35,639 nt of DNA from the IMG/VR virus record IMGVR_UViG_3300037202_000197, positions 1 to 35,639 of that record; one strand, written 5' to 3'. Below, in pieces: positions 4,287 through 19,540 of this stretch (its first letter is position 1; every line of letters starts with the position of its first letter). Both the position numbers and the translations under genes were made by a program. Source of the stretch: a virus. Below the pieces are notes generated by a model. It was not told where the DNA came from and did not search any database. It saw only the letters and a list, made by a program, of their open reading frames with translations.

Positions 4287-5540
4287 ATGCCGAACCTGCA
4301 GGTAGTGACGTGGCTGGTCGAGAAGCTGATTCCCTTCGCCCGGAACGCGCGCACGCATAGTGACGAACAGGTCGCCCAGATCGCGGCGTCGATCGCCGAA
4401 TTTGGCTGGACGAACCCTATTCTCGCCGGCGCCGATGGGATCGTTATCGCCGGCCACGCCCGCCTGCTGGCCGCCCGCAAGCTGGGCCTGACCGAAGTCC
4501 CGGTCATCGTCTTGGACCACCTGACCGATACGCAGCGGCGCGCGCTCGTGCTGGCCGATAACCGCCTGGCGATGAATGCCGGATGGGATGAGGAGATGCT
4601 TCGGGTCGAACTGGAGTCGCTTAAGGAAGAGGACTTCAACCTCGATCTCATTGGCTTCTCCGATGAGGAACTGGAAGACTTGCTGTGCGATCCGGAGGAA
4701 ACTCGCGACGGGCTGACCGACGAGGATGCCGTTCCCGAGACGCAGGAGAAGGTCATCGCCGTCTCAGGCGATGTGTGGCTCCTGGGCCAGCACCGGTTGC
4801 TCTGTGGCGATTCGACGCAGATGGAATCCGTAGAGAAGGTCCTGGCCGGCGGATTGGCCGACATAGTCTTCACCGATCCTCCGTACAACGTGAACTACGG
4901 CGCGACGATGAAGGACAAGCTCCGCGGCAAGACGCATCGCAAGATCGCCAACGACAATCTGGGCGATGGCTTTGAGCAGTTCCTCCGGGATGCATGCACC
5001 AACATGCTGGCGGTTACCAAGGGTGCGATCTACATTTGCATGTCGTCGTCGGAGTTGCATACACTGCACCGCGTGTTCACCGAGATGGGCGGCCATTGGT
5101 CCACGTTCGTCATCTGGGCCAAGCACCATTTCTCGATGGGCCGTTCCGATTACCAGCGCCAATACGAGCCGATCTTGTATGGGTGGAAGGAAGGCACGGA
5201 TCACTTCTGGTGCGGTGCGCGGGATCAGGGCGATGTCTGGTTTATCAAGAAGCCGGCGGCCAACGATCTGCATCCGACGATGAAGCCGGTGGAGTTAGTG
5301 GAGCGGGCGCTGCGCAACTCCAGCAAGAGCCGGGATACTGTGCTCGATCCGTTCGGCGGATCGGGAACCACTTTGATTGCTTGCGAGAAGGCCGGGCGCC
5401 AGGCACGCCTGATCGAACTGGACCCGAAGTATTGCGACGTCGTGATTCGCAGGTGGCAGGATTGGACTGGTGGGCAGGCGCGACACGCGGAGTCGGGGCG
5501 CGCATTCAACGACATGACGAATCACCAGCCGCAGAACTAA
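4287..5540 (+). CDS. ParB-domain DNA methyltransferase (beta class, DPPY)
   Basis: A 417-residue protein. The N-terminal ParB-like domain carries VIAGHARLLAARKLG (53-67). The methyltransferase domain has DPPY at 197-200 and DPFGGSGTT at 354-362, again the beta-class order. DPPY is the usual N6-adenine motif, so N6-methyladenine is the predicted product. The first 135 residues align almost without gaps to the protein at 1979-3547 (NARTHS, AGHxRLLAARKLGL, LADNRLAxNAGWD), so the two arose from a common parent. The methyltransferase halves differ more, and this one lacks the Gly/Ser-rich insert. The pair suggests modification at two different sequences. It ends 4 bases before a strong hairpin and faces a convergent gene. 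Confidence 0.9.
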   Translation: MPNLQVVTWLVEKLIPFARNARTHSDEQVAQIAASIAEFGWTNPILAGADGIVIAGHARLLAARKLGLTEVPVIVLDHLTDTQRRALVLADNRLAMNAGWDEEMLRVELESLKEEDFNLDLIGFSDEELEDLLCDPEETRDGLTDEDAVPETQEKVIAVSGDVWLLGQHRLLCGDSTQMESVEKVLAGGLADIVFTDPPYNVNYGATMKDKLRGKTHRKIANDNLGDGFEQFLRDACTNMLAVTKGAIYICMSSSELHTLHRVFTEMGGHWSTFVIWAKHHFSMGRSDYQRQYEPILYGWKEGTDHFWCGARDQGDVWFIKKPAANDLHPTMKPVELVERALRNSSKSRDTVLDPFGGSGTTLIACEKAGRQARLIELDPKYCDVVIRRWQDWTGGQARHAESGRAFNDMTNHQPQN

Positions 5541-6310: not shown

Positions 6311-7525
6311 ATGTTGGTCAAACCCATCGAAACACCGGCCGTATGCTCACGCGACGCCCTTTTGCAGGGCTTTGAAGGCGAACTGCTGCAGCAAGGATAC
6401 CCACCAAGTACCGTTCACAGAAAGAAGAGACTGTTTGCCGATCTGAGCGATTGGCTGCAGGCTCAGGAATTAACCGCGGGCGATCTGTCATTCCGACTGG
6501 CGGATCGTTTCTTACGCGACCGTAGATCCGCAGGCTTCGCTAGACACAAGACGCACATGACCCTGCGTCCGATCCTTGATTATCTCCATCGACTGAAGCT
6601 AGCTCCTCCCCTTGAGGCGCCTGTGGGGGAAGGCCCTGCAAGCGTAATTCTGGACCGGTACCGGCGCTTTTTGACCATGGAGCGTTCCTTGATAGCCACT
6701 ACGGTCGAGCGGTATATCGATCGTCTGCGCCCATTTCTGGATAGCAGGAATTCTGCAGATGCTCTGGAGCTTGGTAACCTGCGCCCGGCCGATATCATCT
6801 CGTTTGTGGTGGCGCGGTGTCCTCGCGAAAGCAGCAGCAGCGCGAAGTTGACAGTCACGGCGCTTCGGTCGTTCCTTGGCTTTCTTCATCTTGAAGGCAT
6901 CACGGAAAGATCGCTCGTCTGCGCCGTGCCATCGGTTGCCCGTCGCCGATTGGTGGGTTTGCCCAAGGGGCTTGAGCCCGATCAGGTTCAGCGCCTACTT
7001 GCGTCATGCCATGCAAATACTCCCGTCGGCTGTCGGGACCTTGCCATTCTGACCCTGCTGGTCCGGCTGGGACTACGACGCGGCGAGGTCGCAAAGCTCA
7101 TGTTGGACGATATCGACTGGCGAGCGGGCACGATCGTGGTGCGCGGCAAGGGAAACTGTATAGAACGCGTTCCCTTGCCGCAGGACGTCGGCCTCCGGCT
7201 GGTCGAATACCTGGAGCAGGCCCGCCCCATGAACGCACTGGGCCGCGCCGTATTCGTCAGGTGCGTCGCTCCCTATCACCATCTCACTCCGACTCGCGTG
7301 AGCACGATCGTGGCGGATGCTGCACGGAGGGCCGATCTCGGGCGCGTCCACGCGCATCGCCTGCGCCATACCGCAGCTACGCAACTTTTACGTGCCGGTG
7401 CGTCACTACCGGAAATCGGTCAACTCTTGCGTCACGTTCGTACCGGGACGACAGCGATCTATGCGAAGGTCGACCGTAACGGCTTGCGCATGATTGCGCG
7501 CCCATGGCCGGGAGACGTCCAATGA
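6311..7525 (+). CDS. ritA: Tyrosine recombinase RitA
   Basis: A 404-residue tyrosine recombinase (phage integrase family), first gene of the RIT trio. An N-terminal extension of about 105 residues precedes a SAM-like DNA-binding domain (about 112-200) and the catalytic domain (about 220-395). The catalytic set is complete: Arg256 in GLRRGEV, Lys280 in VRGKGN, His349 and Arg352 in HRLRH, His375 in LLRHV, and the nucleophile Tyr384 in TAIYAKVD. The ATG at 6311 follows the strong ribosome site AGAGGAG, which lies in a potential hairpin. The stop overlaps the start of ritB in ATGA, indicating coupled translation. The product is predicted to act with RitB and RitC on the element ends, not as the phage integrase. 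Confidence 0.93.
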   Translation: MLVKPIETPAVCSRDALLQGFEGELLQQGYPPSTVHRKKRLFADLSDWLQAQELTAGDLSFRLADRFLRDRRSAGFARHKTHMTLRPILDYLHRLKLAPPLEAPVGEGPASVILDRYRRFLTMERSLIATTVERYIDRLRPFLDSRNSADALELGNLRPADIISFVVARCPRESSSSAKLTVTALRSFLGFLHLEGITERSLVCAVPSVARRRLVGLPKGLEPDQVQRLLASCHANTPVGCRDLAILTLLVRLGLRRGEVAKLMLDDIDWRAGTIVVRGKGNCIERVPLPQDVGLRLVEYLEQARPMNALGRAVFVRCVAPYHHLTPTRVSTIVADAARRADLGRVHAHRLRHTAATQLLRAGASLPEIGQLLRHVRTGTTAIYAKVDRNGLRMIARPWPGDVQ

Positions 7526-8442
7526 GCGCCATTCGCCAAGCTCTCACAGAGTATCTGGCCATGCGCCGCGCCCTTGGTTACAAGCTTGACAAAACAGAGA
7601 GACTTCTCGGTCAGTTCGTTTCCTTCGTCGAAGATCGCGGCGAAAACTGTTTGACAACCGAAACGGCGCTGGCTTGGGCAACTCTCCCCGCAGGCGCCGA
7701 CGCAAGCTGGACTTCCAGGCGACTTGCCGAAGTTCGTATCTTCGCCCGACACCTCCATGGGCTCGACCCTGCCACCCAGGTGCCGTCAATGGGCATCCTG
7801 CCAGGCCGAGCACGCAGAGCAACACCGTACCTCTACTCGTCACACGAAATCTCGAACCTGATGTCGGCGACGGCGATCGTGCGCGGGTCCCACTTGCAGG
7901 CAACGTATCGGACACTGATTGGCGTGCTGGCGGCAACCGGAATGCGTGTCGGAGAGGCGATCGGACTCGACAGCGATGACTTCGACGCGATCAATGGCCT
8001 GCTCACGATCCGCAACGGCAAATTCGGCAAGCTGCGCGAATTGCCGTTGCACCCAACCGTGGTCACGGCCCTGCAGGACTACTTGCGCCGCAATGATCGT
8101 CCTCATCAGGCGGGCACGTCGGCATTGCTGTCGTGTTCGGCAGGCAGGCGACTGCGCTACAAGAACGTGCTGGAGACATTCCGGAAACTGCTACGCCATT
8201 GCGGTATCTCACCACGTTCGGCCGCATGCAGGCCGAGGATCCATGATCTCCGGCATGGCTTCGCCGTCAATACCATCATTGATGGTTACAAGGCAGGCGA
8301 ACCCGGGACCCGCATGGCGATCTTGTCAACCTATCTTGGTCATGTCGACCCTGCCAACACCTACTGGTATCTTTCGGCCGCACCGGAATTGCTGGGGTTG
8401 GCTGGCGATCGACTTGAGCGCCACCTTGGAGGTGACGCATGA
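7522..8442 (+). CDS. ritB: Tyrosine recombinase RitB
   Basis: A 306-residue tyrosine recombinase, second gene of the trio. The start at 7522 is chosen over the ATG at 7504 because it gives an ATGA overlap with ritA and is preceded by GGGAGA. The catalytic residues seen are Arg142 in GMRVGEA, Lys170 or Lys167 in NGKFGKLR, His241 and Arg244 in IHDLRH, His274 in YLGHV and Tyr283 in NTYWYLSA. A second tyrosine (Tyr281) sits two residues earlier, so the nucleophile assignment rests on the usual spacing. The N-terminal DNA-binding region is about 1-95. The gene ends in another ATGA overlap with ritC. Confidence 0.92.
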   Translation: MSAIRQALTEYLAMRRALGYKLDKTERLLGQFVSFVEDRGENCLTTETALAWATLPAGADASWTSRRLAEVRIFARHLHGLDPATQVPSMGILPGRARRATPYLYSSHEISNLMSATAIVRGSHLQATYRTLIGVLAATGMRVGEAIGLDSDDFDAINGLLTIRNGKFGKLRELPLHPTVVTALQDYLRRNDRPHQAGTSALLSCSAGRRLRYKNVLETFRKLLRHCGISPRSAACRPRIHDLRHGFAVNTIIDGYKAGEPGTRMAILSTYLGHVDPANTYWYLSAAPELLGLAGDRLERHLGGDA

Positions 8443-9428
8443 CCGCACTTGCCACGACTTTGCAGGCGTTCTTCACTGATCGCCTCGTCCGTCAGCGTCA
8501 GGTCAGCCCGAACACGCTCTGTGCATATCGGGATACCCTGCGGCTATTGCTGGTCTTCGCATCAGACAGGAAAGGCAATGCCCCAAGCAAGCTGGATATC
8601 GACGATCTGGATGCTTCGCTGGTCGGGGCCTTCCTCAACGACTTGGAACAGCAGAGAAAGAACAGCGTGCGCACCCGCAATGCGCGGCTTGCTGCCATCC
8701 GTTCCCTGTTTCGATACGCGGCGCTTCGGCATCCAGAGCATGCTTCTGCCATCGAGCGCGTTCTTGCCATTCCACCAAAGCGCTTCGAGCGACGGCTCGT
8801 GACCTTCCTGACCGAGGAGGAAATCAACGCCTTGCTCGCCGCGCCCGATCGGTCGAAGTGGGCCGGGCGGCGCGACACCGCACTGTTCAGCCTCGCTGTC
8901 CAGACCGGTCTTCGGGCGTCTGAACTGACCGGCCTGAGCTGCGCCGATGTCCATCTCGGAACCGGTGCGCATGTAAGCTGCAACGGGAAGGGACGAAAGC
9001 AACGGATCACGCCGCTCACCTCGGGCACAGTCGCCGTCTTGCGTTCCTGGCTGGCCGAACGGGCCGGTCAGCCAGATGCGCCGCTCTTCACCACACAGAC
9101 TGGAAGAAGACTCAGCCGGGACGCTCTGGAGCACAGGCTTGCCAAATACGTCGGGAACGCCACCGGCGTTTGTCCCTCGCTGGCAGAAAAATCGGTGACC
9201 ATGCATGTATTGCGGCATTCAGCCGCCATGCGATTGCTGCGCGCCGGCATCGACACCTCGGTGATCGCACTCTGGCTCGGCCACGAACAGATCGAGACGA
9301 CCCAAATCTACCTGCACGCGGATCTGGAGATCAAGGAACGCGCTCTGGAGAAGACAGCTCCGATAGAGACAAAACCCGGCCGTTTCCGACCGACCGACAA
9401 ACTGCTCGCCTTCCTGGAGGCTCTCTGA
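8439..9428 (+). CDS. ritC: Tyrosine recombinase RitC
   Basis: A 329-residue XerC/D-like recombinase, third gene of the trio. The N-terminal core-binding domain spans about 5-110 and the catalytic domain about 122-300. Catalytic residues are Arg159 in GLRASEL, Lys184 in NGKGRKQR, His256 and Arg259 in MHVLRH, His282 in WLGHE and Tyr291 in TTQIYLHAD. All are present, so the enzyme should be active. The stop codon TGA at 9426-9428 touches the first bases of the right inverted repeat, leaving no spacer. Its size and sequence are closest to ordinary Xer-type integrases of the three. Confidence 0.93.
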   Translation: MTALATTLQAFFTDRLVRQRQVSPNTLCAYRDTLRLLLVFASDRKGNAPSKLDIDDLDASLVGAFLNDLEQQRKNSVRTRNARLAAIRSLFRYAALRHPEHASAIERVLAIPPKRFERRLVTFLTEEEINALLAAPDRSKWAGRRDTALFSLAVQTGLRASELTGLSCADVHLGTGAHVSCNGKGRKQRITPLTSGTVAVLRSWLAERAGQPDAPLFTTQTGRRLSRDALEHRLAKYVGNATGVCPSLAEKSVTMHVLRHSAAMRLLRAGIDTSVIALWLGHEQIETTQIYLHADLEIKERALEKTAPIETKPGRFRPTDKLLAFLEAL

Positions 9429-9510: not shown

Positions 9511-9959
9511 TGGTTCTGCCAGTCGGTCGCCTTGGCAATCTCGGCCAGCGTCGCGCCGCCCTTGCGGCGCAGCAGTTCGATCACGATGGCCTTCTTGCTG
9601 CCTTCGCGCGCCGTGGGCGCGCCGTCCTCGGCCTTGGCCGCCTTCCTCGACCTCTTGGCCTTCGGTGCAACGTCGGCCACTTGGGGCGCGGCTGGGGCCT
9701 CCAGTTTCTGGATGGCCTTCCAGATTCGCGCTACGGCGCTCTTGCGGTCCGTGAACTTCTTGACCGGCTTCAGGTCGGTACCGAATCCGGCGACTCCGGC
9801 GAAGCTGTTCCAGATCTGGACCAGCCGGTCGCTGGCCCAGTTGGCGGCGAGCTTGGCCAGCTCCTTTTCGCTGGCGAATTGCTCTTGGCCTTCCGGAATC
9901 TGCTCGGCGGCGGGGAAGGCTGTGATGGTGTTGTCGTTATCGATGGCAAATAGTCGCAT
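9510..9959 (-). pseudogene. 5' part of a DUF3489 protein, truncated by the RIT element
   Basis: The frame starts at 9959 (MRLFAIDNDNTITAF) and reads about 150 native residues to TDWQNH, then runs into the element's right repeat and stops at 9429. Residues 1-90 form a conserved N-terminal region. Residues 95-118 are a Lys/Ala-rich linker (KAKRSRKAAKAEDG). Residues 119-150 begin the DUF3489 helix-turn-helix-like domain (SKKAIVIELLRRKGGATLAE), which is cut in its recognition-helix region. Its 3' half lies at 6032-6142. DUF3489 proteins are phage-linked with unknown function, and the domain resembles a DNA-binding fold. The truncated 176-residue product may still be made but should lack DNA binding. 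Confidence 0.85.
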
Positions 9960-9972
9960 GGTGTTTTCCTCT

Positions 9973-10155
9973 CTACTGCTCGTTTGCGGGGCGGCGCAGG
10001 CGGGCAGCCCCCCGGACGCGAACCTCGCGTCCGGTTGCCAGGTTGGTTCCGTACCAGCCGCCGTGCGGCGACTCGCGGGTGATGCGCACCTTGGCCAGCA
10101 CTCCGCTGACCTTGGCGATGTAGGTCGATCCGATCTGTACGTCCTGCTTCTTCAT
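9973..10155 (-). CDS. Small conserved protein upstream of DUF3489
   Basis: A 60-residue basic protein starting MKKQDVQIGSTYIAKVSG. The start at 10155 is chosen because GAGGTG lies just before it, rather than the ATG 39 bases further upstream. The sequence looks like a small beta barrel (TYIAKVSGVLAKVRI, GGWYGTNLATGREVRVR), a form I associate with small proteins placed directly before DUF3489 genes. It ends 13 bases before the DUF3489 start, so the two were probably one transcript ending at the terminator at 5985-6011. The function is unknown; the Arg-rich C-terminus suggests nucleic-acid contact. Confidence 0.65.
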   Translation of the reverse strand: MKKQDVQIGSTYIAKVSGVLAKVRITRESPHGGWYGTNLATGREVRVRGAARLRRPANEQ

Positions 10156-10298
10156 GGCACCTCGATTCATCACTCCGGTCGCGTGGAACCTCAAGGGGAA
10201 TGTTCGAGAATCGCGCAGAAAAATGAGCGACCCGAATGGGAGGCGAAGCGTCGGCCTTTCCCAAATCTGATCGCTCCGAGGGCGGGAAAGCTTTAATC

Positions 10299-10826
10299 AT
10301 GGGCATCTCCATTCGCGCTTATGCCCGGATGCGCGGTTGCGCGAAATCCGCGGTTGAGAAGGCCATCAAAACGAAGCGGATCACACCATTGCCGGACGGC
10401 ACCATCGATCCGGAACGGGCCGACCAGGAGTGGGCGAAGAACACCTTCGCCGGGCACACGCTCAACCGCGCGCAGGCCGCGCCGGCGCCGCGTAGTAGCT
10501 CCGCGCTGCCGCCGGAACCTGGTCCGTCCGGAGATCCGGTCGCAGCCTACCTCCGCGCGCGGGCGGTCAACGAGACATTCAAAGCGAAGGTCTCGCAGAT
10601 GGAATACGAGGAGCGGGCCGGCAAGCTGATCCCGGCAGCCCGCGCCTCTGAGTACGCCGCAAGTTTCTCCGCGATCGTCAAGGACGGCCTGATGGCCATG
10701 CCCGACCGCCTCTCGCCGATGCTGGCGGCCGTGGCTGATGAGAAGGCGATCCATCGCATGCTGGTGGCAGAAGTTTCGGCTCTGCTGCGGAAGGTGAGCA
10801 AGGCTGTCGCGGACGCGGGCCTCTAA
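10299..10826 (+). CDS. Terminase small subunit (Nu1-like)
   Basis: A 175-residue protein directly upstream of the large terminase, with only 2 bases between them. Residues 1-45 form a helix-turn-helix (MGISIRAYARMRGCAKSAVE, then ITPLPDGTIDPERADQEW) typical of Nu1-like small terminases that bind the packaging site. Residues 50-85 are a Pro/Ser-rich linker. The rest is helical (RARAVNETFKAKVSQMEYEE) and likely oligomerises or contacts the large subunit. The start at 10299 is preferred to the ATG at 10236 because the first 21 residues of the longer form look like random translation. It is the first gene of the late operon. Confidence 0.8.
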   Translation: MGISIRAYARMRGCAKSAVEKAIKTKRITPLPDGTIDPERADQEWAKNTFAGHTLNRAQAAPAPRSSSALPPEPGPSGDPVAAYLRARAVNETFKAKVSQMEYEERAGKLIPAARASEYAASFSAIVKDGLMAMPDRLSPMLAAVADEKAIHRMLVAEVSALLRKVSKAVADAGL

Positions 10827-10828
10827 AC

Positions 10829-12721
10829 ATGCAACCGTTCTCCATACATGAAGTGGGCGCCGCGGCGATGCTGCCGCCGCGCGAGATCACGGTTTCGCAA
10901 TGGGCCGACGAGAACCGGGTGCTCACCGGCGGCGCTGCGGCTGAGCGGGGCCAGTGGCGCTCGCGGCCGTACCAGCGTGAGCCCATGGACGTCCTCAGCC
11001 CGTCGCATCCCTGCCGCCAGGCGGTGTTGCTATCCGGGTCGCAGCTCCTGAAGACCGAGGTGCTGCTGAACTTTCTCGGATTCATTGCGGACGTGGATCC
11101 GGGCCCGGTGCTGGTGGTGGAGCCTCGCACCGAGGATGCCAAAGCGCTCTCGAAGGACCGCGTAGCGCCGATGTTCCGCAGCACGCCGGCACTGCGCGGG
11201 AAGATCTCGCCGGTCAAGTCGCGCGACTCAAATAACACTACGCTGCACAAGGTCTTCGCCAACGGCGCCGGCCACATCACGTTAACTGGCGCGATCTCGC
11301 CCTCCGGGCTGGCCATGCGGCCGATCCGATATGCGCTGCTCGATGAGGTGGACCGGTATCCGGCCAGTGCCGGCAGCGAGGGCGATCCGGTGTCGTTGGC
11401 GGTCCAGCGCACCGCCGAGTTCGCCCACAACAAAAAGATCGTCATGGCATCCACGCCGACGATCAAGGGCATCAGCCGGATCGAACTCGCGTGGGGGGAA
11501 AGCGACCAGCGCGATTACTTCGTGCCCTGCCCCAAGTGCGGCGACTTCCAGATGCTCGTGTTCGGCGACGGGACCGGGCCCGGCCTGGTGTGGCCCGAGG
11601 GGAAACCCGAGGAGGCCATGTACCGTTGCGCCGGGTGCCAGGAGTTGATTCCCCACCACCAGAAGGCCTGGATGGTGGAGCGCGGCGAGTACCGAGCGCA
11701 GAATCCGTCCTCGCCGATTCCGGGGTTCCGGCTGTCGCAGTTGATCTCGCCGAAGAAATCCTGGGGCGACATCGCTTCCGAGTTCCTGGCAGCGAAAAAG
11801 TCTCCGGAGACTCTCAAGGCGTTCAAGAATACGGTTCTGGCCGAGCTGTGGGAAGACACCCACGAAGTGCCTACCGACGCGCACGCTCTGTGGAGCCGCT
11901 GTGAACCTTTCGAAGCCGAGGCGCCGGATGGGGTCGCACTGGTCACTGCCGGAGTGGACGTACAGGCCGACCGGCTGGAGTTGGAAATCGTGGGCTGGGG
12001 CCGGGACGAGGAGTCCTGGTCGATCGCGTACCACGTGATCCCTGGCGATGTGATGCGCACGGAGGTGTGGGATCACTTGGAGGGCTTGCTGCTCAGCGAG
12101 TACTTGCACGCCTCCGGGCTGCCGATGCGGATTGTGGCGACGTGCATCGACTGCGGGTTCAAGGACGCGACCGTATTGCGCTTCACGCGCGACCGCTACA
12201 ACCGTCGTGTCTACGCCACCAAGGGCCGCGCTGGCGAATCGCCGATCTGGCCGCGGAAGCCGGGCCGGAAGAATCAAACGCCGTTCTTCATGATCGGCGT
12301 GGATGCGGGGAAGGCAGCACTCTACGACCGGCTGAAGATCGGGAAGCCGGGGCCGGGATATTGTCATTTCCCAATTGGACGCGACCTGGAGTACTTCGAG
12401 CAGTTGACCGCTGAGAAGAAGTTTACGCGCTATCACAACGGCTTTCCGAAGCAGGAGTGGCGAAAGCCGGCCAACGCCCGGAACGAGGCGCTCGATGCGC
12501 GGAACTACGCTTACGCAGCACTGCATGCGCTTTACGCCAGCGGGTTGAAGCTGCCGGTTCATTGTGACCGTTTCGCACGGATGGTCGCGGCGAGGCGAGG
12601 AGAGAGTGAGTCGCAAGTAGCGACGCCAAGGCCGGCCAGTCCCCAAACGCACGCTCCAACTGCCGTTGAGCGCGGCGATGACCCTTGGATACCGCGCCGT
12701 AACTGGTTCGGACGGAGTTGA
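10829..12721 (+). CDS. Terminase large subunit (lambda GpA family)
   Basis: A 630-residue packaging motor and nuclease. The ATPase domain has a Walker A-like loop SGSQLLKT at 69-76 and Walker B YALLDEVD at 168-175, followed by the coupling motif ASTPT (207-211). A zinc finger is formed by CPKC (234-237) and CAGC (267-270). The nuclease domain begins near TAGVDVQADRLELEIVGWG (373-391). The length is close to lambda gpA (641). The Walker A loop reads SQLLKT where GpA relatives often have a Gly before the Lys. The protein would cut and pump phage DNA through the portal encoded at 13015. Confidence 0.95.
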   Translation: MQPFSIHEVGAAAMLPPREITVSQWADENRVLTGGAAAERGQWRSRPYQREPMDVLSPSHPCRQAVLLSGSQLLKTEVLLNFLGFIADVDPGPVLVVEPRTEDAKALSKDRVAPMFRSTPALRGKISPVKSRDSNNTTLHKVFANGAGHITLTGAISPSGLAMRPIRYALLDEVDRYPASAGSEGDPVSLAVQRTAEFAHNKKIVMASTPTIKGISRIELAWGESDQRDYFVPCPKCGDFQMLVFGDGTGPGLVWPEGKPEEAMYRCAGCQELIPHHQKAWMVERGEYRAQNPSSPIPGFRLSQLISPKKSWGDIASEFLAAKKSPETLKAFKNTVLAELWEDTHEVPTDAHALWSRCEPFEAEAPDGVALVTAGVDVQADRLELEIVGWGRDEESWSIAYHVIPGDVMRTEVWDHLEGLLLSEYLHASGLPMRIVATCIDCGFKDATVLRFTRDRYNRRVYATKGRAGESPIWPRKPGRKNQTPFFMIGVDAGKAALYDRLKIGKPGPGYCHFPIGRDLEYFEQLTAEKKFTRYHNGFPKQEWRKPANARNEALDARNYAYAALHALYASGLKLPVHCDRFARMVAARRGESESQVATPRPASPQTHAPTAVERGDDPWIPRRNWFGRS

Positions 12722-12722
12722 T

Positions 12723-12977
12723 ATGGCTTTAACGATTCAACAGTTGCAAGCGAACCTGGATGCGGTCAACCAGGCACTCGGCAATCCGACGCTGAAGGTG
12801 CGCTTTCCGGACGGGCGCGAGGTGACGTACCGTTCCGTAGACGAACTCCGCAAAGCGAAAGCGGAGATCGAAGATGACATTCGGAAGGCCAGCGGGCAAA
12901 CCGGGAGCCGGGTGCGGTTCGCTCAGCATCAACGCGGCGATGGACCTACCGGGCCGACGCTGGACGACCGCTGGTGA
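12723..12977 (+). CDS. gpW-like head-tail connector
   Basis: An 84-residue protein starting MALTIQQLQANLDAVNQ at 12723, one base after the terminase stop. The start is chosen because the longer frame would overlap the terminase by about 55 bases. It shows the gpW pattern: an N-terminal helix, a small beta hairpin (LKVRFPDGREVTYRSV), then a second helix (DELRKAKAEIEDDIRKASG). In lambda gpW seals the portal after packaging. The position between terminase and portal is the same as in lambda. Confidence 0.8.
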   Translation: MALTIQQLQANLDAVNQALGNPTLKVRFPDGREVTYRSVDELRKAKAEIEDDIRKASGQTGSRVRFAQHQRGDGPTGPTLDDRW

Positions 12978-13014
12978 AAGGCCAGGCACATCATATGGAA
13001 ATCAGCTCGCCGAA

Positions 13015-14709
13015 ATGAATCTCCTCGATAAGGCGATCAGCGTCGTGGCGCCGCGCGTGGCGTTGCAGCGTGCGCGGAGCCGCGTGGCCCTGGAACTGAC
13101 CACCGGCTATCTCGAGCGGCACGCTCAGCGGTTCCGATATGACGGCGCCGCCGCCGGCCGTCGAAGCCACGGCTGGTACGCGGCCTCGACCGACGCCAAC
13201 GTCGAGTTGATGGGGTCGCTTATCTGGCTCCGCAACCGCAGCCGCGATCTGATCCGCAACAATCCTTATGCCGCCCGCGCGGTCGAGGAGTTGGCCGGCA
13301 ACGTGGTCGGAACCGGGATCGTACCGAAGGCCAAGACCGGTAATACGGCAATCGACAAGGTCATCGACGCCGAGTGGCCGTTCTTCGCCGAGGCTTGCGA
13401 CACGCCGCAGCGTCTCGATTTCTATGGCATGCAGACCCTGACCGTCCGCACCATGGCCGAGAGCGGCGAAGCGATTTTGCGATTCCGGCCGCGGCCCGCC
13501 GATGCAGGCCTTCGCATTCCGCTGCAGCTTCAGATGCTCGAAGCGGATTTTCTGGATCAGGCCCGAACCATGGGCCTGGTCAACGGGCACGTGATGGAAG
13601 GCGTGCAGTTCGATGAGACGGGCCGGCGCGTAGCGTATTGGCTGTTCACCTATCACCCGGGTGGGGTGCTGATCCTCAATCCGCGAGGCGGAATTGTGAG
13701 CCAGCCGGTTCCAGCCGATCAGATCATGCACGTCTATCGCGTGCTTCGGCCCGGCCAGGTTCGCGGCGTGCCGTGGCTCGCGCCCGTGATGATGGCGCTC
13801 CGGGATCTCGACGATTATTGCGACGCAGAGCGGGTGCGAAAGAAGATCGAGGCCTGCGTAACCGCGTTCGTCGAGCAGCCGGAAGGCATCGACGGCGATC
13901 CGTTGGGACTCGCCGGGACTGACCCGTCGAGCGGGCTTCCCGTCGAAAGCTTCCAGCCCGGCATGGTCGAGTATCTGAAACCCGGCCAGGTGGTCAAGTT
14001 CAACAATCCGCCGGCAGCGGGCGGGTACCGCGAATACAAGATGACCGAGCTGCAGGGCATCATGGCCGGTATCGGCCTGCCGTATGAACTCGGCACCGGC
14101 GACATGTCCCAGGTGAATTACTCTTCCTGGCGTGGCGGCATGTTGGGCTTCCGCAACACAGTCGAGGCCTTCCGATGGCTCACTTTGATCCCGCTGTTTG
14201 CAATGCCGGTCTGGCGGCGGTTCATCGACACGCTGATTCTTCAGGGCAAGATTCCACAATCTGCCGTCAACGAACCGAAGATCGGCCTGCGGACAGTCCA
14301 GTGGACCGCCCCGCGATTCGAGTCCGTCGATCCGGTGAAGGATGCGGAGGCGGTCTTGAAGGACGTCCGCATGGGTCGGAAGACATGGTTCGAGGCGGTG
14401 CTGGAGAACGGCTACGATCCCACCACGCAGATCGAGCAGATTGCGTTGTTCAACAAGCTGGTCGACAAATTCGAAATCATCCTGGATTCGGACCCGCGCA
14501 ACACCACGCTGCGCGGCCAGGAGCAGCCGGCCGGAACGGAGGAGCGCACGCCGAGCAGCAAAGCCGCTCCCGGTAAGTCCAAAGGCCAGGGATTCGCGGC
14601 GCTCTCGGAAGAGGACCTCGGCATGGTGAAGGATCTGCTGGTCGCCGGGATGTCGCGCGCGGGCGGCAGCTTCGAATCCGTGTCTCGCCTCTATCGCGGC
14701 TTTTATTAG
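13015..14709 (+). CDS. Portal protein (lambda gpB family)
   Basis: A 564-residue portal protein forming the ring through which DNA enters and leaves the capsid. The start MNLLDKAISVVAP at 13015 is used; the longer frame to 12874 would overlap the gpW gene. Family features include RNRSRDLIRNNPYAARAVEE near residues 70-89, MQLEADFLDQ-like and MHVYRVLRPGQVRGVPWLAP segments in the core, and the conserved YSSWRGGMLGFRN block near residue 370. The C-terminal 50 residues are charged and low in complexity. A 7-codon frame (12995-13018) ends in an ATGA overlap with the start and could couple its translation. The stop overlaps by 4 bases the stop of the convergent gene at 14706-15425. Confidence 0.92.
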   Translation: MNLLDKAISVVAPRVALQRARSRVALELTTGYLERHAQRFRYDGAAAGRRSHGWYAASTDANVELMGSLIWLRNRSRDLIRNNPYAARAVEELAGNVVGTGIVPKAKTGNTAIDKVIDAEWPFFAEACDTPQRLDFYGMQTLTVRTMAESGEAILRFRPRPADAGLRIPLQLQMLEADFLDQARTMGLVNGHVMEGVQFDETGRRVAYWLFTYHPGGVLILNPRGGIVSQPVPADQIMHVYRVLRPGQVRGVPWLAPVMMALRDLDDYCDAERVRKKIEACVTAFVEQPEGIDGDPLGLAGTDPSSGLPVESFQPGMVEYLKPGQVVKFNNPPAAGGYREYKMTELQGIMAGIGLPYELGTGDMSQVNYSSWRGGMLGFRNTVEAFRWLTLIPLFAMPVWRRFIDTLILQGKIPQSAVNEPKIGLRTVQWTAPRFESVDPVKDAEAVLKDVRMGRKTWFEAVLENGYDPTTQIEQIALFNKLVDKFEIILDSDPRNTTLRGQEQPAGTEERTPSSKAAPGKSKGQGFAALSEEDLGMVKDLLVAGMSRAGGSFESVSRLYRGFY

Positions 14710-15425
14710 GGCTGAAGGGATTCTGATGTAATGCTGCAAAACTCTTTCTTAACTGCCGCGGCGGACGTCGTGAGTCCTCCGGTCAATGCCAAGGTCAGCT
14801 CCACTCTGAGTAATGTTGGGGATACGTCGCTCACGACCATGTTGATCGAGACTTCCTTATGGTTGGCGGCGGGTTGAATGGCGGTGAGGACCCCCGCGTC
14901 CCTGTTTGCGGTCACGCTCTTGAATCCATGCAATGCCAGCACCTGGGCCGACTTGTCGATAGTCTTCAGCCTGTTGAAACCTCGAACTTCCGCAAACGTT
15001 TTGTATGTCTTGTCCTTGATGAGCATGCCTTTATGAGTGACTTCCTCAGTGAAGTTGGTCGTACACTGCTCGCTTGCGGGTGGCCGTGAACCTTCCTTGG
15101 TGGAGGCATCGACCGAGGATGTGGCGGCAACGGTCTGGGTAGACCTCTCCGGGCTACGCTTCGCCGCGCGTTCAACCATTGCTTTGATGACCCCCTGCCC
15201 GACACCAGCCTTGCTGAGGTTAAGGACGGTTTCAGTTGAGACGTCGAGGGCTTCTTCAGGGGCCTGCTGTATCTTCGCGATGATGACCTCGTCTGCGAGG
15301 CCGACCTTCACGAGGACCAAGATGTCTTCGTTCGTCAGAGCTTTGGCAGACTGCGCAGCGGCAGAAGCAACTCCGAGGAGCAAGCAAGCAGACACAAACA
15401 TCGCGGTACGAACTGCGTGTTTCAT
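14706..15425 (-). CDS. Secreted protein, antisense cargo gene
   Basis: A 239-residue protein on the strand opposite the late operon. Residues 1-24 are a clear Sec signal peptide (MKHAVRTAMFVSACLLLGVA, then SAAAQ); the cysteine is not in a lipobox. Residues 28-88 have the pattern LTNEDILVLVKVGLADEVII, then TVLNLSKAGVGQGVIKAMVE, a repeat common in secreted proteins of Acidobacteriota. After a Ser/Thr-rich linker, residues 118-239 form a second domain (FAEVRGFNRLKTIDKSAQVL, then DAGVLTAIQP) like those of small exported proteins. AAGGAG lies about 11 bases before the start. It is not a virion-gene type and is best seen as host-derived cargo expressed from the prophage. Its role is unknown. Confidence 0.8.
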   Translation of the reverse strand: MKHAVRTAMFVSACLLLGVASAAAQSAKALTNEDILVLVKVGLADEVIIAKIQQAPEEALDVSTETVLNLSKAGVGQGVIKAMVERAAKRSPERSTQTVAATSSVDASTKEGSRPPASEQCTTNFTEEVTHKGMLIKDKTYKTFAEVRGFNRLKTIDKSAQVLALHGFKSVTANRDAGVLTAIQPAANHKEVSINMVVSDVSPTLLRVELTLALTGGLTTSAAAVKKEFCSITSESLQP

Positions 15426-15498
15426 AAAGTCGCGTTCTCCTTCGTCTCTTATCCGCCTAACGATACCACAACAACAAAAACTGCGGTGAAGGGCTGCC

Positions 15499-15528
15499 TT
15501 GACAACAGGCTGCCGAATCGCCTATTGC
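15499..15528 (+). promoter_or_regulatory. Candidate sigma-70 promoter restarting + strand transcription
   Basis: TTGACA (15499-15504), an 18-base spacer and TATTGC (15523-15528). It resembles the site at 1203-1233 in both boxes and in ATCGC just before the -10. It lies after the antisense cargo gene and upstream of the ferritin-like and capsid genes, where a fresh promoter would be useful. Confidence 0.4.
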
Positions 15529-15593
15529 GCTAAGCGTCTTCAATCGCTCGATCGGCGCGAAACTAATCTCTGCTATCTCTATTCGGAATTAGC

Positions 15594-15914
15594 TATGGGC
15601 GGCCACTGGCGGCTACACCCTTAGCCGCGCTCAACGCGGCGTGCCTCAAGACCTTTGGGACGCCGGCCTACCAACAGGTAGGCGACGCTCCATTCTCGGT
15701 CAGCGGAATCTTCTTGAAGGTGACCGATGAGGAACGTCTCGCGGACGGTCTTTACGCCCGGCTGTTCGTGAGTCTCGCGGACTTCGCCGCAAGTCCAGCC
15801 AGCGGGGAAGAGATGAGGTGGTTGGCGTGACGTGCACGGCTTCCGGGTGAGGGCCGATCCGACCGCTGGCGTCTGCTCTTGGTGCGCGAGAAGCTTGCCC
15901 ATTCTTACCGATGA
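15594..15914 (+). pseudogene. Frameshifted remnant of a second head-tail attachment gene
   Basis: The frame from about 15594 to the TGA at 15828 encodes ALNAACLKTFGTPAYQQVG, then FSVSGIFLKVTDEERLADG and LYARLFVSLADFAASPASGE. This matches the layout of the attachment protein at 19572-19913 (IMQQTFGEPVVYQ, then ISVSASDLANFPQRGD). The expected C-terminus continues in other frames: DEVVGV, then VHGFRVRADPTAG, then WRLLLVREKLAHSYR ending at 15914. There is no in-frame ATG at the front. So the gene has lost its start and carries at least two or three frameshifts. It looks like a scar of recombination with a related phage. The frameshift interpretation is mine. Confidence 0.55.
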
Positions 15915-15960
15915 ATTCTTGTAACGAGCCAAAAAGTCCACCACAAAAAGGAAGTGAAAC

Positions 15961-16446
15961 ATGAAAGGCAACCCGCAGGTAATTGGCGGCCTTCAAGAGG
16001 CCGCGGACATCGAAGCCTCCCTGATGCTTCAGTATCTTCTCGACCAGCGTGATGTAAAGCGTCTGGGACTTGATCTGGCCGACGGCTTGAAGCAACTGCA
16101 CGAGCAGTGCGAAGACCACATGAAGCACCTCGTCAGCCGGCTGCTGTTCCTCGAAGGCGCGCCCACCATACAGCCGAAGCCCGCCGCCACGCACGACAGC
16201 GTCACCGAGATTCTGAACGATGCCTTCGCAGCCGAGCAGGCTGCCGTCGCCCGCTTCACCGATCTGTGCAAGCAGTGTTACGACGCGGGTGACATGTCGA
16301 ACTTCCATTTCTACCAGCACCTGGTGAAGTGGCACCGCGAGGGCGACGACAAGTTCAATGGCCATGTCGCGTGGCTTCAGAAGCAGCTCTACCAGATGAA
16401 CAAGCTGGGCGAGAACGATTACATCGCCGTCAACGCGAAGGGATAA
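15961..16446 (+). CDS. Bacterioferritin-like protein (ferritin-like four-helix bundle)
   Basis: A 161-residue protein very like bacterioferritin: it opens MKGNPQVIGGLQEAADIEAS, has MKHLVSRLLFLEGAPTIQ at 54-71 and ends in the HVAWLQKQL and KLGENDYIA pattern. Comparing by eye with E. coli Bfr, Glu18, Tyr25, the heme-ligand Met (Met54), the diiron His (His56), Glu92 and His135 are kept. The second bridging Glu position falls on His53 and the helix-D Glu on Phe132, so the ferroxidase centre looks altered. It may bind iron or heme, protect against oxidation, or serve a structural role. AAGGAAGTG lies just before the ATG. It sits between portal and capsid genes on the same strand, with the capsid gene starting 12 bases after its stop. 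Confidence 0.85.
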   Translation: MKGNPQVIGGLQEAADIEASLMLQYLLDQRDVKRLGLDLADGLKQLHEQCEDHMKHLVSRLLFLEGAPTIQPKPAATHDSVTEILNDAFAAEQAAVARFTDLCKQCYDAGDMSNFHFYQHLVKWHREGDDKFNGHVAWLQKQLYQMNKLGENDYIAVNAKG

Positions 16447-16458
16447 GGGAGGCCATCG

Positions 16459-18711
16459 ATGCCGCTTTTGCGAACAGAGTATTTGCAGAGGGATGCCGGC
16501 GCGCCGCCGCCCGCCAGTCCCAACACGGAAGTCTTTTCCGCCGACGCGCAGGTCCTGCCCAGCACGGCCAACGCCAAGGACGGGACCATCGATGTGGTCT
16601 GGTACAGCGGGGCCGCTGTTCCCAGGATTGATCGCGCTACCGGCGAGCCGTACATGCTCCAGCTCGACATGCAGGGCTGCCGCTTCGACCGGCTGAACAA
16701 TGGCGCGCCGGTCTTCGACACCCACTTCACGGGCGACGATTTCAAGTCACTGATCGCCGGCAAGGTCGGCACGCGTGCTCAGGTGGGCGTAGTGCGCCGC
16801 GCCTGGCCCAATGGCGACAAGGGCATGGCCACCCTGCAATTCGATCTCGGCGATGAGGACGGCGCCGAGATGTTCCGCAAAGCCAGTGCGGGCATCCTCC
16901 AGAACCTCAGCTTCGGAACCTTCGTTTACAAGCGCGAGAAGCTCCAAACAGAAGGGATGCCGGAAGGCAAGCCGCCCTACCTGAACGACAAGGAAATCGG
17001 CATGTTCCAGGCGACGGACTGGGAGCCGTTCGAGATTTCGCCCTGCACGGTGCCGGCCGATTTCAACACCTGCTTTCTGAGCGCGCAGCCGACCGGGGAA
17101 GTTACGATTTTCGGCACGCCGGACTCCGGCGTGATCGATGCATTACGGGCAATCAGCCCACAAAAGGAGAAACCTGCCATGGAACCGACCACGCAGGATA
17201 CGGGCGCGGATGCCCGTGCTGTGAACGAACAGGCATTGGCCGCCGCGCGGGAAGAGGCGGTCCAGGCCGAACGGCAGCGCGTTAGCGAGATCCAATCGCT
17301 GGGCGTGACCGCAATTAGGTATGGCGTCGACGACACCGTCATCAGCGAGTTCATCGCCAAGGGCGTGCCCGTCGATCAGGCCCGGAAGGAAGTGTTTGCA
17401 CAGCTCGAAAAGAAGGGCAAGAAAGACGCAAACGGCAACGACTTCGATCCTCCCGGCACGGTGATCGTCACCCGCGACGGCGGTGAGCAGCGCCTTGCTT
17501 GCATGCAAATGGCGCTGTTGCTGCGCGCGGATGGCCGGTTCTTCCTGGCGCGGCGCAGGGACCACAACGGCAACGATCTCGGGGAGTACCTCGACGGCTA
17601 CGGCCCCGAGCAGCAGAAGCGGGCCGTCGAGATGGCGCGCGAGTACCGCAATTTCAAGCTCATCGACATGGCCAAAGAGGCGCTGACGTTCCGCGGCATC
17701 AACCCCCGCGGGATGGATGTGACGCGGATCGCGGAGCTGGCGCTGAAGGGCCCGTCGCGGGGACCGGAGTTTTTTGCGGGCGGCGCCGAATCGACCTCGG
17801 ATTTTCCGGGGATCCTGGCCAATGTCGCCAACAAAACTCTGCGCCAAGGCTACGAAGCCTATCCCCGCACCTTCCAGCCCTTCTGCCGGCAGGTCACGGC
17901 GCAGGATTTCAAGCCCATCAACCGCGTGATGCTTGCCGATGCGCCCGTCCTGCAGGCGCTGAACGAGAAAGGCGAGTACCACCGCGCCAATCTGACCGAC
18001 AACAACATCAACTACGCGCTCGGCACTTATGGCGAGATCGTCGCGCTGACCCGCAAGGTGATCATCAACGACGACCTTCAGGCGTTTACGCGCGTCCCGG
18101 CTCTGCTCGGCGTGGCTGCGGCGCAGCTCGAATCGAACACCGTTTGGGCCATCATCACGACGAATCCGGCGGCAATCTACGCGGGCGACAAAAACTCCAC
18201 GGCGCTGTTCCACGCCAATCACGGCAACCTGCTGACCGGCGTGGCCAGCGCCATCGATTCCACCGTTGCCAACTCCGCTCCGCTGACCGCGTTGGGCAAG
18301 GGGCGCGGTGCCATGCGGCTGCAGAAGGGACCCCAGGGCACTCCGCTGAACCTCATTCCGCGGTTCATTGCCGTGCCGACGGCGCTGGAGACTTACATGC
18401 TCCAGCTCGTGTACCCGATCAATATCGCGTCGGCGGATGCGACCAAGGTCGTACCCGAGTGGGTGCGTAGCCTGATTCCGGTGGTCGAGCCGCGTCTCGA
18501 TGCCGCGACGAATGGGACCACCGGCTGGTATCTGATTGCGGACCCCGCACAGATCGACACCGTGGAGTACTGCTACCTGGAAGGACAGCAGGGCGTGTAC
18601 ATCGAAACCAAGCAGGGTTTCGAAGTGGATGGCGTCGAGATCAAGGCGCGCATGGATTTCGGCGCGGCGGCTCTCGATTATCGCGGGCTTCAGAAGAACG
18701 CCGGCCAGTAG
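16459..18711 (+). CDS. Prohead protease fused to major capsid protein
   Basis: A 750-residue fusion. Residues about 25-210 are an HK97-type prohead protease: His89 in FDTHF, Ser151 in NLSFGTF, and the later block DWEPFEISPCTVPAD. Residues about 241-345 are charged and helical (AAAREEAVQAERQRVSEIQS), like a scaffold. Residues about 435-750 resemble the Mu gpT type of major head protein (SDFPGILANVANKTLRQGYE, then ALTRKVIINDDLQAF). In most phages protease, scaffold and capsid are separate genes. A strong internal ribosome site precedes Met241, so a protease-free scaffold-capsid product may be made in excess. The start at 16459 lies 12 bases after the ferritin-like gene and follows GGGAGG. Confidence 0.9.
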   Translation: MPLLRTEYLQRDAGAPPPASPNTEVFSADAQVLPSTANAKDGTIDVVWYSGAAVPRIDRATGEPYMLQLDMQGCRFDRLNNGAPVFDTHFTGDDFKSLIAGKVGTRAQVGVVRRAWPNGDKGMATLQFDLGDEDGAEMFRKASAGILQNLSFGTFVYKREKLQTEGMPEGKPPYLNDKEIGMFQATDWEPFEISPCTVPADFNTCFLSAQPTGEVTIFGTPDSGVIDALRAISPQKEKPAMEPTTQDTGADARAVNEQALAAAREEAVQAERQRVSEIQSLGVTAIRYGVDDTVISEFIAKGVPVDQARKEVFAQLEKKGKKDANGNDFDPPGTVIVTRDGGEQRLACMQMALLLRADGRFFLARRRDHNGNDLGEYLDGYGPEQQKRAVEMAREYRNFKLIDMAKEALTFRGINPRGMDVTRIAELALKGPSRGPEFFAGGAESTSDFPGILANVANKTLRQGYEAYPRTFQPFCRQVTAQDFKPINRVMLADAPVLQALNEKGEYHRANLTDNNINYALGTYGEIVALTRKVIINDDLQAFTRVPALLGVAAAQLESNTVWAIITTNPAAIYAGDKNSTALFHANHGNLLTGVASAIDSTVANSAPLTALGKGRGAMRLQKGPQGTPLNLIPRFIAVPTALETYMLQLVYPINIASADATKVVPEWVRSLIPVVEPRLDAATNGTTGWYLIADPAQIDTVEYCYLEGQQGVYIETKQGFEVDGVEIKARMDFGAAALDYRGLQKNAGQ
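17164..17181 (+). promoter_or_regulatory. Internal ribosome binding site and in-frame start in the protease-capsid gene
   Basis: AAGGAGA (17164-17170) stands 8 bases before an in-frame ATG at 17179 (Met241, MEPTTQDTGADARAV). The site lies exactly at the linker between the protease and the scaffold-like region. Lambda uses an internal in-frame start in gene C to make its scaffold; this would be an analogous arrangement yielding a 510-residue scaffold-capsid protein. Confidence 0.6.
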
Positions 18712-18745: not shown

Positions 18746-19540
18746 ATGCAGAATTACGTTCAAAAAGGTCAAACCCTCACGCTCGTCGCGCCCTACGCGC
18801 TGCTCAGCGGCGGCGGTTGCCAGGTAGGCAACATCTTCGGCGTGACGGTCAACAGCCAGAACATAGGCGACTCGAGCGAGTTAGTGGTGGAGGGCGTGTT
18901 CGATCTGGCGAAGGACACGAGCACCTTCAATTCCGGAGACAAAGTCTTCTGGAACAACACGGCCTTGCAGGCCACGTCCAGCCCGTTGACGGCAGCCGGC
19001 GTCTCGAACAAAGAGATCGGCTACGCGGTGTTGAGCCAGGCGAGCGGCGTGAATGCGCCGGGCGGCCTGACTGGCGATGCGACCGTTCGCGTGCGGCTCA
19101 ATCCGCTCGGCTTCGGGCCGGTGCAGGCGGCGGACACCGACCCGTCGCTGATTCAGAAAACCGTGGTGACGCTCACGGCGGCGCAGATCATGGCCATGTT
19201 TGGAGCGGCGGTCAGCATCTTGCCGGCGCCCGCGGCAGGACAGGTACTCGTGGTGGATCAGTTCATCGTACAGATGAAACCCGGCGCCACGCAGTTCACC
19301 GGCGGCGGTGCAGTGTCGTTCCAGTATCACGGGACCGGCGTGGTGCCGCACTCGTCCACCATCCCCGCAGCGACCGTCACCAGCGCGGCCGCGAGCGAGA
19401 ACGTCGTGCCGCCGCCCACGGGCGTCATCCAGCCGCCATCGGCGACCGGCATCGACATCGTCAACGCCACGGGCGCCTTCGCCACCGGAAACGGCACGAT
19501 GGTGGTGACGGTGTTCTACTCCATCATCACGCTCAACTAA
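18746..19540 (+). CDS. Capsid decoration-type protein (DUF2190) with C-terminal extension
   Basis: A 264-residue protein. Residues 1-115 match the DUF2190 pattern (MQNYVQKGQTLTLVAPYALL, GGGCQVGNIFGVTV, VVEGVFDLAKDTS, KVFWNNTA), a small beta fold found as a head decoration or cement protein next to capsid genes. Residues about 130-264 are an added beta-rich domain (LVVDQFIVQMKPGATQF, then MVVTVFYSIITLN) that is not part of the core family and could be exposed on the capsid surface. It starts 34 bases after the capsid stop with AGGAGAG before the ATG. Confidence 0.8.
   Translation: MQNYVQKGQTLTLVAPYALLSGGGCQVGNIFGVTVNSQNIGDSSELVVEGVFDLAKDTSTFNSGDKVFWNNTALQATSSPLTAAGVSNKEIGYAVLSQASGVNAPGGLTGDATVRVRLNPLGFGPVQAADTDPSLIQKTVVTLTAAQIMAMFGAAVSILPAPAAGQVLVVDQFIVQMKPGATQFTGGGAVSFQYHGTGVVPHSSTIPAATVTSAAASENVVPPPTGVIQPPSATGIDIVNATGAFATGNGTMVVTVFYSIITLN

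Follow-up and report, generated by a model that had tools for sequence, protein, structure and literature searches.

A bacterioferritin-like gene with replaced ferroxidase ligands between the portal and capsid genes of Acidobacteria soil phages

In bacterioferritin (Bfr), Glu18 and His54 are ligands of Fe1, Glu94 and His130 are ligands of Fe2, Glu51 and Glu127 bridge the two sites, and Tyr25 moves to Fe2 (PMC3467274); the haem ligand is Met52 (PMC12120770). Here we analyze a gene, labeled FTN, that lies at positions 15961..16446 on the plus strand of the window, i.e., the whole analyzed stretch of 35,639 bases from a viral record in IMG/VR. FTN resembles Bfr (TIGR00754; EcBfr 1bcf, Brucella Bfr 9gzu) in its fold over nearly the whole length (TM 0.80-0.89), in its N-terminus (MKGN/MKGD) and in the equivalents of Glu18, Tyr25, His54, Glu94 and His130. 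Unlike Bfr, it has Cys, Ser or Ala in place of Glu51, no Met52 and, going by the structural model, His in place of Glu127; its helix D is at least 7 residues longer, and its C-terminal helix is altered. Hetero-bacterioferritin subunits, among them haem-free Bfr1, likewise lack Met52 or part of the ferroxidase centre (PMC12120770). However, these subunits are cellular and partnered by a second Bfr gene, each pair having one complete function (PMC12120770). No second ferritin gene was found among the window genes scanned, and a pattern scan of the window for a Bfd partner gene gave only two chance-like matches.

Other ferritin-superfamily proteins are more distant. EncFtn in encapsulin shells is tied to an HK97-fold shell (PMC5012862), and FTN is linked to such a shell by its gene neighborhood only; EncFtn has two main helices and an interface ferroxidase site (PMC5012862), whereas FTN is of the four-helix Bfr type without such a site. 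A bfr gene under purifying selection, as FTN is, has been described on a viral contig from Vrana Lake sediment (PMC10904782). That gene, however, is an archaeal-host gene regarded as encoding a functional Fe oxidase, and the accessible part of the source reports no link to a head slot and no loss of ligands (PMC10904782). A ferritin-like fold is also present in Dps/ferritin-like proteins of uncultured Caudovirales and of Bacillus and Lactobacillus phages (BFVD), but these proteins are Dps-like and match FTN weakly, with 7-19% identity (best E 2e-3). Three of the uncultured Caudovirales entries annotated as prohead protease (A0A6J7XDU5, A0A6J7WIS1 and A0A6J7WPK9) gave a weak ferritin-fold match of ~150-165 residues, and they may combine a Dps-like domain and a head protease in one fused protein. 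A literature search retrieved no paper on ferritin-like genes within phage head operons.

The original prediction of a ferritin-fold gene at 15961-16446 is borne out. The open reading frame starts with ATG, encodes 161 aa and is preceded by a Shine-Dalgarno-like leader. In the profile search, FTN matched Pfam Ferritin PF00210 with 46.8 bits (cut-off 24.5), and bacterioferritins had the best scores among its solved relatives in the sequence search (E 1e-9). It fell below the equivalog cut-off of TIGR00754, the NCBIfam bfr model (43.3 vs. 125.55 bits), and below those of the Dps models NF009990 and NF040955 (13.9 and 13.5 bits vs. 158 and 250 required). The AlphaFold model, built with 29 family members as input (pLDDT 90.9), is a four-helix bundle with a short C-terminal helix (helices 5-34, 42-65, 81-108, 112-127 plus 135-149, and the short 151-158); the C-terminal helix is weakly predicted and is absent from the model of the most divergent member. 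A Foldseek comparison of the model to the PDB placed bacterioferritins on top, at TM 0.80-0.89, and also matched a few bacterial ferritins that assemble with bacterioferritins. The predicted structure is thus a Bfr-type four-helix bundle, and both the profile match and the modeled bundle make FTN a member of the ferritin superfamily.

We found 75 distinct sequences homologous to FTN, from IMG/VR phages; in the IMG/VR search, close homologs turned up on more than 75 contigs, and additional groups had ~60%, 47-50% and 44-46% identity. The carriers are soil and peat phages of Acidobacteria, and, going by contig L077, their host order is Bryobacterales. Phage-type FTN is present in 3 of 257 host-order genomes (all MAGs), in the context of a phage, a prophage or a prophage remnant. 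One Acidobacteria MAG contig, L078, is a decayed prophage that carries a truncated FTN (9860-10345) with residues 48-159 intact, beside a short capsid remnant. The isolated-phage records that we searched contain no FTN and only host-type Bfr (two records of one Acinetobacter phage, 26%), the plasmids searched contain only cellular Bfr at ~30% and no FTN, and none of the PHROG families searched represents FTN. A tree built from 18 phage FTNs and 5 cellular Bfrs separates the two groups with 100/100 support, and a long branch divides the monophyletic phage clade from cellular Bfr; within the ferritin superfamily, the phage proteins make up one lineage, which either descends from bacterioferritin or is its sister group. 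Pfam Ferritin is matched by 15 of the 18 members at E 0.01, and the model of L136, which represents the most divergent group, still has the Bfr fold (pLDDT 84.5, TM ~0.82).

To set the ligand register, the FTN family was aligned jointly with 30 Bfrs from the host order, and conservation was counted over 71 phage FTN sequences. Helix B is free of gaps in this alignment, the A-B turn being one residue shorter, so that Cys50 of FTN corresponds to Glu51 of Bfr, Glu51 to the haem ligand Met52, and His53 to His54. The codons of Cys50..His53 (CEDH; 16108..16119, plus strand) stand in place of the Bfr ExxH motif (Glu51..His54), and Cys50 and His53 are found in 66 and 60 of the 71 members, respectively. 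The original prediction placed Glu18, Tyr25, Glu92 and His135 correctly at Bfr positions. Its further candidates, Met54 and His56, are out of register: equating His53, Met54 and His56 with Glu51, Met52 and His54 requires a gap in helix B, and these two residues are conserved in only 46/71 and 8/71 members vs. 60/71 for His53, the position of His56 being freely variable and mostly occupied by Cys. We rejected this register, which a fortuitous MKH string had suggested. We also rejected a Cys metal site common to the family and made of Cys50, Cys103 and Cys106, because Cys103 and Cys106 are Ala in several branches. The broader claim of a changed ferroxidase centre holds in that ligands have been replaced, but not in its register, in which His53 was put in place of a Glu.

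The remaining ligands are on helices C and D. Glu92 (codon 16234..16236, plus strand), the equivalent of the terminal Fe2 ligand Glu94, is present in 71/71 members, as are His125 and His135 (codons within 16333..16365, plus strand), which correspond to the Glu127 and His130 positions of Bfr. In FTN, 9 residues separate the two helix-D ligand positions, compared to 2 in Bfr (7 extra residues); the spacing is 9-15 across the phage family vs. 2 in 30/30 host Bfrs. NFHFYQHLVK is a conserved stretch of helix D. In the model, helix D runs from 112 to 127, is broken at 128-134 and resumes at 135. Counting from the conserved start of helix D (A-G-D in the phage proteins, V-G-D in a number of Bfrs) puts His125 at the place of Bfr Glu127, and counting back from the conserved GHxxW makes His135 the equivalent of Bfr His130. 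Alignment programs, working on sequence alone, open the gap at an earlier point, so that Phe132 is paired with Glu127, and this is the pairing that had been read as a replacement of Glu by Phe; in the model, however, Phe132 is in the inserted 7-residue loop, and the predicted helix boundaries suggest that His125 is probably the residue that occupies the place of the bridging Glu127. Glu127 is lost under either alignment.

The patterns at positions 18-50-53-92-125-135 of the phage proteins are ECHEHH (57 sequences), ECYEHH (5), LCDEHH (3), ESAEHH (2), ESHEHH (2), QCHEHH (1) and EAYEHH (1), whereas the host-order Bfrs have EEMHEEH at 18-51-52-54-94-127-130 in 30/30 cases. Both bridging Glu residues are replaced in all 71 members, Met is found at position 51, the equivalent of Met52, in 0/71, and the Fe1 ligands erode in some branches, with some members losing the equivalents of both Glu18 and His54. 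We looked for a full ferroxidase centre elsewhere in FTN, and none was found. Because Glu92, His125 and His135 are the only Bfr ligand positions that are invariant in the family, FTN is not a working bacterioferritin, and, with the iron chemistry gone, canonical iron storage is unlikely. This runs against two functions suggested earlier for the protein, iron oxidation by the Bfr mechanism and haem binding. It should be noted that an ordinary auxiliary role, in which the phages carry a working bacterioferritin that stores or detoxifies iron, would agree with the fold, the length and the closest relative of FTN, and that a virus-encoded Bfr elsewhere is described as probably functional (PMC10904782). 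Nevertheless, the loss of the bridging pair and of the haem Met throughout the family, the further losses at Glu18 and His54 and the score of 43 bits where the bfr model requires 125.55 make this explanation very improbable. FTN would no longer oxidize or store iron as Bfr does.

One metal ion is probably held at the former Fe2 position by two His and one Glu, and the loop inserted in helix D would cap this site, in a structural or redox role. In a rival reading, Glu92, His125 and His135 form a mononuclear two-His-one-carboxylate site for iron or another metal, with the helix-D loop as a substrate pocket, and FTN would be an enzyme or redox protein acting, for example, against reactive oxygen during assembly. 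The restriction of invariance among the Bfr ligand positions to these three residues, the location of the insertion exactly between the two helix-D ligands, and the invariance of Tyr25 (71/71), the residue that moves to Fe2 in Bfr (PMC3467274), are all in line with a metal-dependent catalyst. However, catalytic activity cannot be read from sequence alone, FTN matches no enzyme family, and His120 (71/71) and His116 (70/71), which are probably at the protein surface, are invariant or nearly so as well; we consider a catalytic function improbable.

The location between portal and capsid genes, which was also part of the original prediction, is confirmed and extends to the whole family. In the window, a lambda-family portal gene (12874..14709, plus strand; Pfam Phage_portal_2, E 6.8e-103) forms the upstream border of the slot, and 12 bp after FTN follows a head protease-major capsid fusion (16459..18711, plus strand; Pfam Phage_capsid_4; phrog_4523 "major head and protease protein", E 4.6e-168). 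The same head module includes a gpA-type terminase large subunit (10829..12721, plus strand; Pfam GpA_ATPase and GpA_nuclease) and a head decoration/cement protein (18746..19540, plus strand; Pfam Phage_cement_2, phrog_122 head decoration). Among distinct sequences with both flanks readable, the portal gene is upstream and the head protease/capsid gene downstream of FTN in 70/70; only copies at contig ends and a single decayed copy in a MAG depart from this. The usual spacing in the relatives is ~28 bp between portal and FTN and ~10 bp between FTN and capsid, and FTN has its own Shine-Dalgarno sequence. No sense-strand promoter-like site was found near FTN within the window. Like a moron, FTN is accessory, variable and swappable; a promoter and terminator of its own are not part of this arrangement, in which the genes share one strand and are separated by gaps of ~28 and ~10 bp. 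Most carriers combine the lambda-type portal (Phage_portal_2) with the protease-capsid fusion (Phage_capsid_4). In L124/L125, FTN has the same slot in a module consisting of TerL, an HK97-type portal, FTN, a ClpP-type protease and an HK97 capsid; this case is a single lineage, represented by two near-identical contigs. The fidelity of the slot among the lambda-type heads could result from homologous recombination through the flanking genes, and the HK97-type case is the only one that escapes this account.

Unlike its relatives, the window has 1251 bp of extra sequence separating portal from FTN (14710..15960), for which blastn against all fetched loci returned only the window itself. Within this insertion, a minus-strand open reading frame (14706-15425) encodes 239 aa with a signal-peptide-like start; proteins similar to the N-terminal part of the product are encoded in 49 of 100 host-order genomes, and the gene looks like a captured host gene. 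Upstream, three consecutive, slightly overlapping tyrosine recombinase genes (6311-9428, plus strand; Pfam Phage_integrase) have the layout of recombinase-in-trio elements; L114 contains copies related to these three genes, on the opposite strand. Two homologous genes at 1979-3547 and 4287-5540 (plus strand) each encode a ParB N-terminal and a DNA methylase domain.

The slot is constant, but its occupant is not. We checked the best 80 of 432 capsid relatives, chosen without reference to FTN: 66 have FTN, 12 have the portal gene without FTN, and 2 are cut by contig ends. Several FTN-less capsid-protease genes open with the first ~11 codons of FTN, i.e., MKGNPDVITDL in L213/L214 (from 2558 and 4141, respectively), MKGNPDVINGL in L216/L218 (near 3871 and from 3691) and MKGNADVITGL in L200 (near 1807). 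These starts are fusion scars of repeated FTN deletion, and L202 (MNAPPEVSSGPPES) looks like another. In L185/L186/L188, the portal-capsid junction is clean, without a scar. Four changes of FTN state are needed on the portal tree, at least three of them required by branches with good support, and most rows without FTN are placed inside groups of carriers; the HK97-type relative L163, with a portal 65% identical to that of L125, is also without FTN. FTN as an essential or core part of the head is ruled out by the FTN-less heads and the deletion scars.

Alleles are exchanged as well. For example, the FTNs of L050 and L139 are 44% identical while their portals are 92% and their capsids 90-93% identical; those of L189 and L129 are 81% identical, with portals at 73% and capsids at 53-66%; and L254 has a portal 95% identical to that of L133, yet an FTN of the L126 type. 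The slot is fixed, the FTN allele is not, and the gene is swappable as a cassette. Since FTN alleles diverge to 44% identity in heads that are 90-93% identical, FTN does not co-evolve tightly with the head proteins.

The repeated losses with scars would be expected if FTN were a passenger in decay, i.e., a captured host gene that is being lost from the slot. The signature of purifying selection contradicts this: median dN/dS is 0.13 over 1,831 pairs, with no pair above 1, which points to a working rather than a decaying gene and likewise marks the predicted gene as real. In addition, 26 positions are invariant across 18 members with identity down to 44%, and the frames are intact in the members read, other than the remnant L078 from a MAG and copies that run off a contig end. 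We regard decay as hardly credible.

The presence/absence pattern and the swapping of divergent alleles would also fit a host-matched accessory gene that interferes with host iron. FTN might co-assemble or compete with host Bfr late in infection, and mixed cages with a crippled ferroxidase and no haem would shift iron storage or release to the benefit of the phage. A true Bfr scoring above the cut-off is encoded in 46 of 61 host-order genomes, and Bfr subunits, haem-free ones included, are known to mix in vivo (PMC12120770). However, FTN differs from host Bfr at the A-B turn, in helix D and around the C-terminal E helix, which makes mixing doubtful; a free host-directed gene would not have to stay in the head slot, as FTN does without exception and even in an unrelated module; and a separate promoter would hardly fit into the 28-bp gaps of the relatives. 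Interference with the host is therefore unlikely, although it deserves to be kept in view.

We tentatively favor, at somewhat less than an even chance, a head-accessory role for an FTN with a single-metal site. FTN would be translated along with the late head genes, as an accessory that the phage can do without, and would most likely act inside the head or on its surface, in decoration, as an internal protein or as an assembly accessory, and not as a free iron store. Such a role would account for a slot that never varies, for the tight spacing between FTN and its head-gene neighbors, and for the occurrence of FTN at this place in a second, unrelated head module. It is common for decoration proteins and internal head proteins to be dispensable. 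The FTN-less heads, the alleles of 44% identity in nearly identical heads and the possible upkeep of the slot by recombination among lambda-type heads count against this reading. BFVD includes ferritin/Dps-fold proteins in uncultured phages, some of which are named "prohead protease"; these weak structural matches point the same way and fall short of proof. A more specific version, in which the particle has FTN as a non-essential, Bfr-derived component whose metal site holds a single ion, the viral counterpart of the ferritin cargo of encapsulins, is possible but on the unlikely side.

If the head-accessory reading is correct, soil phages of Acidobacteria acquired an iron-storage protein that lost its ferroxidase and haem chemistry under selection while its gene was retained in the head cluster. 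Such a conversion of a host metal protein into a phage accessory would be unusual. Automatic annotation would list FTN as a bacterioferritin metabolic gene even though the defining residues are gone, and this should serve as a warning. The finding would also bear on the question of how HK97-type shells became linked with ferritins, as in encapsulins, and on whether virions carry metal.
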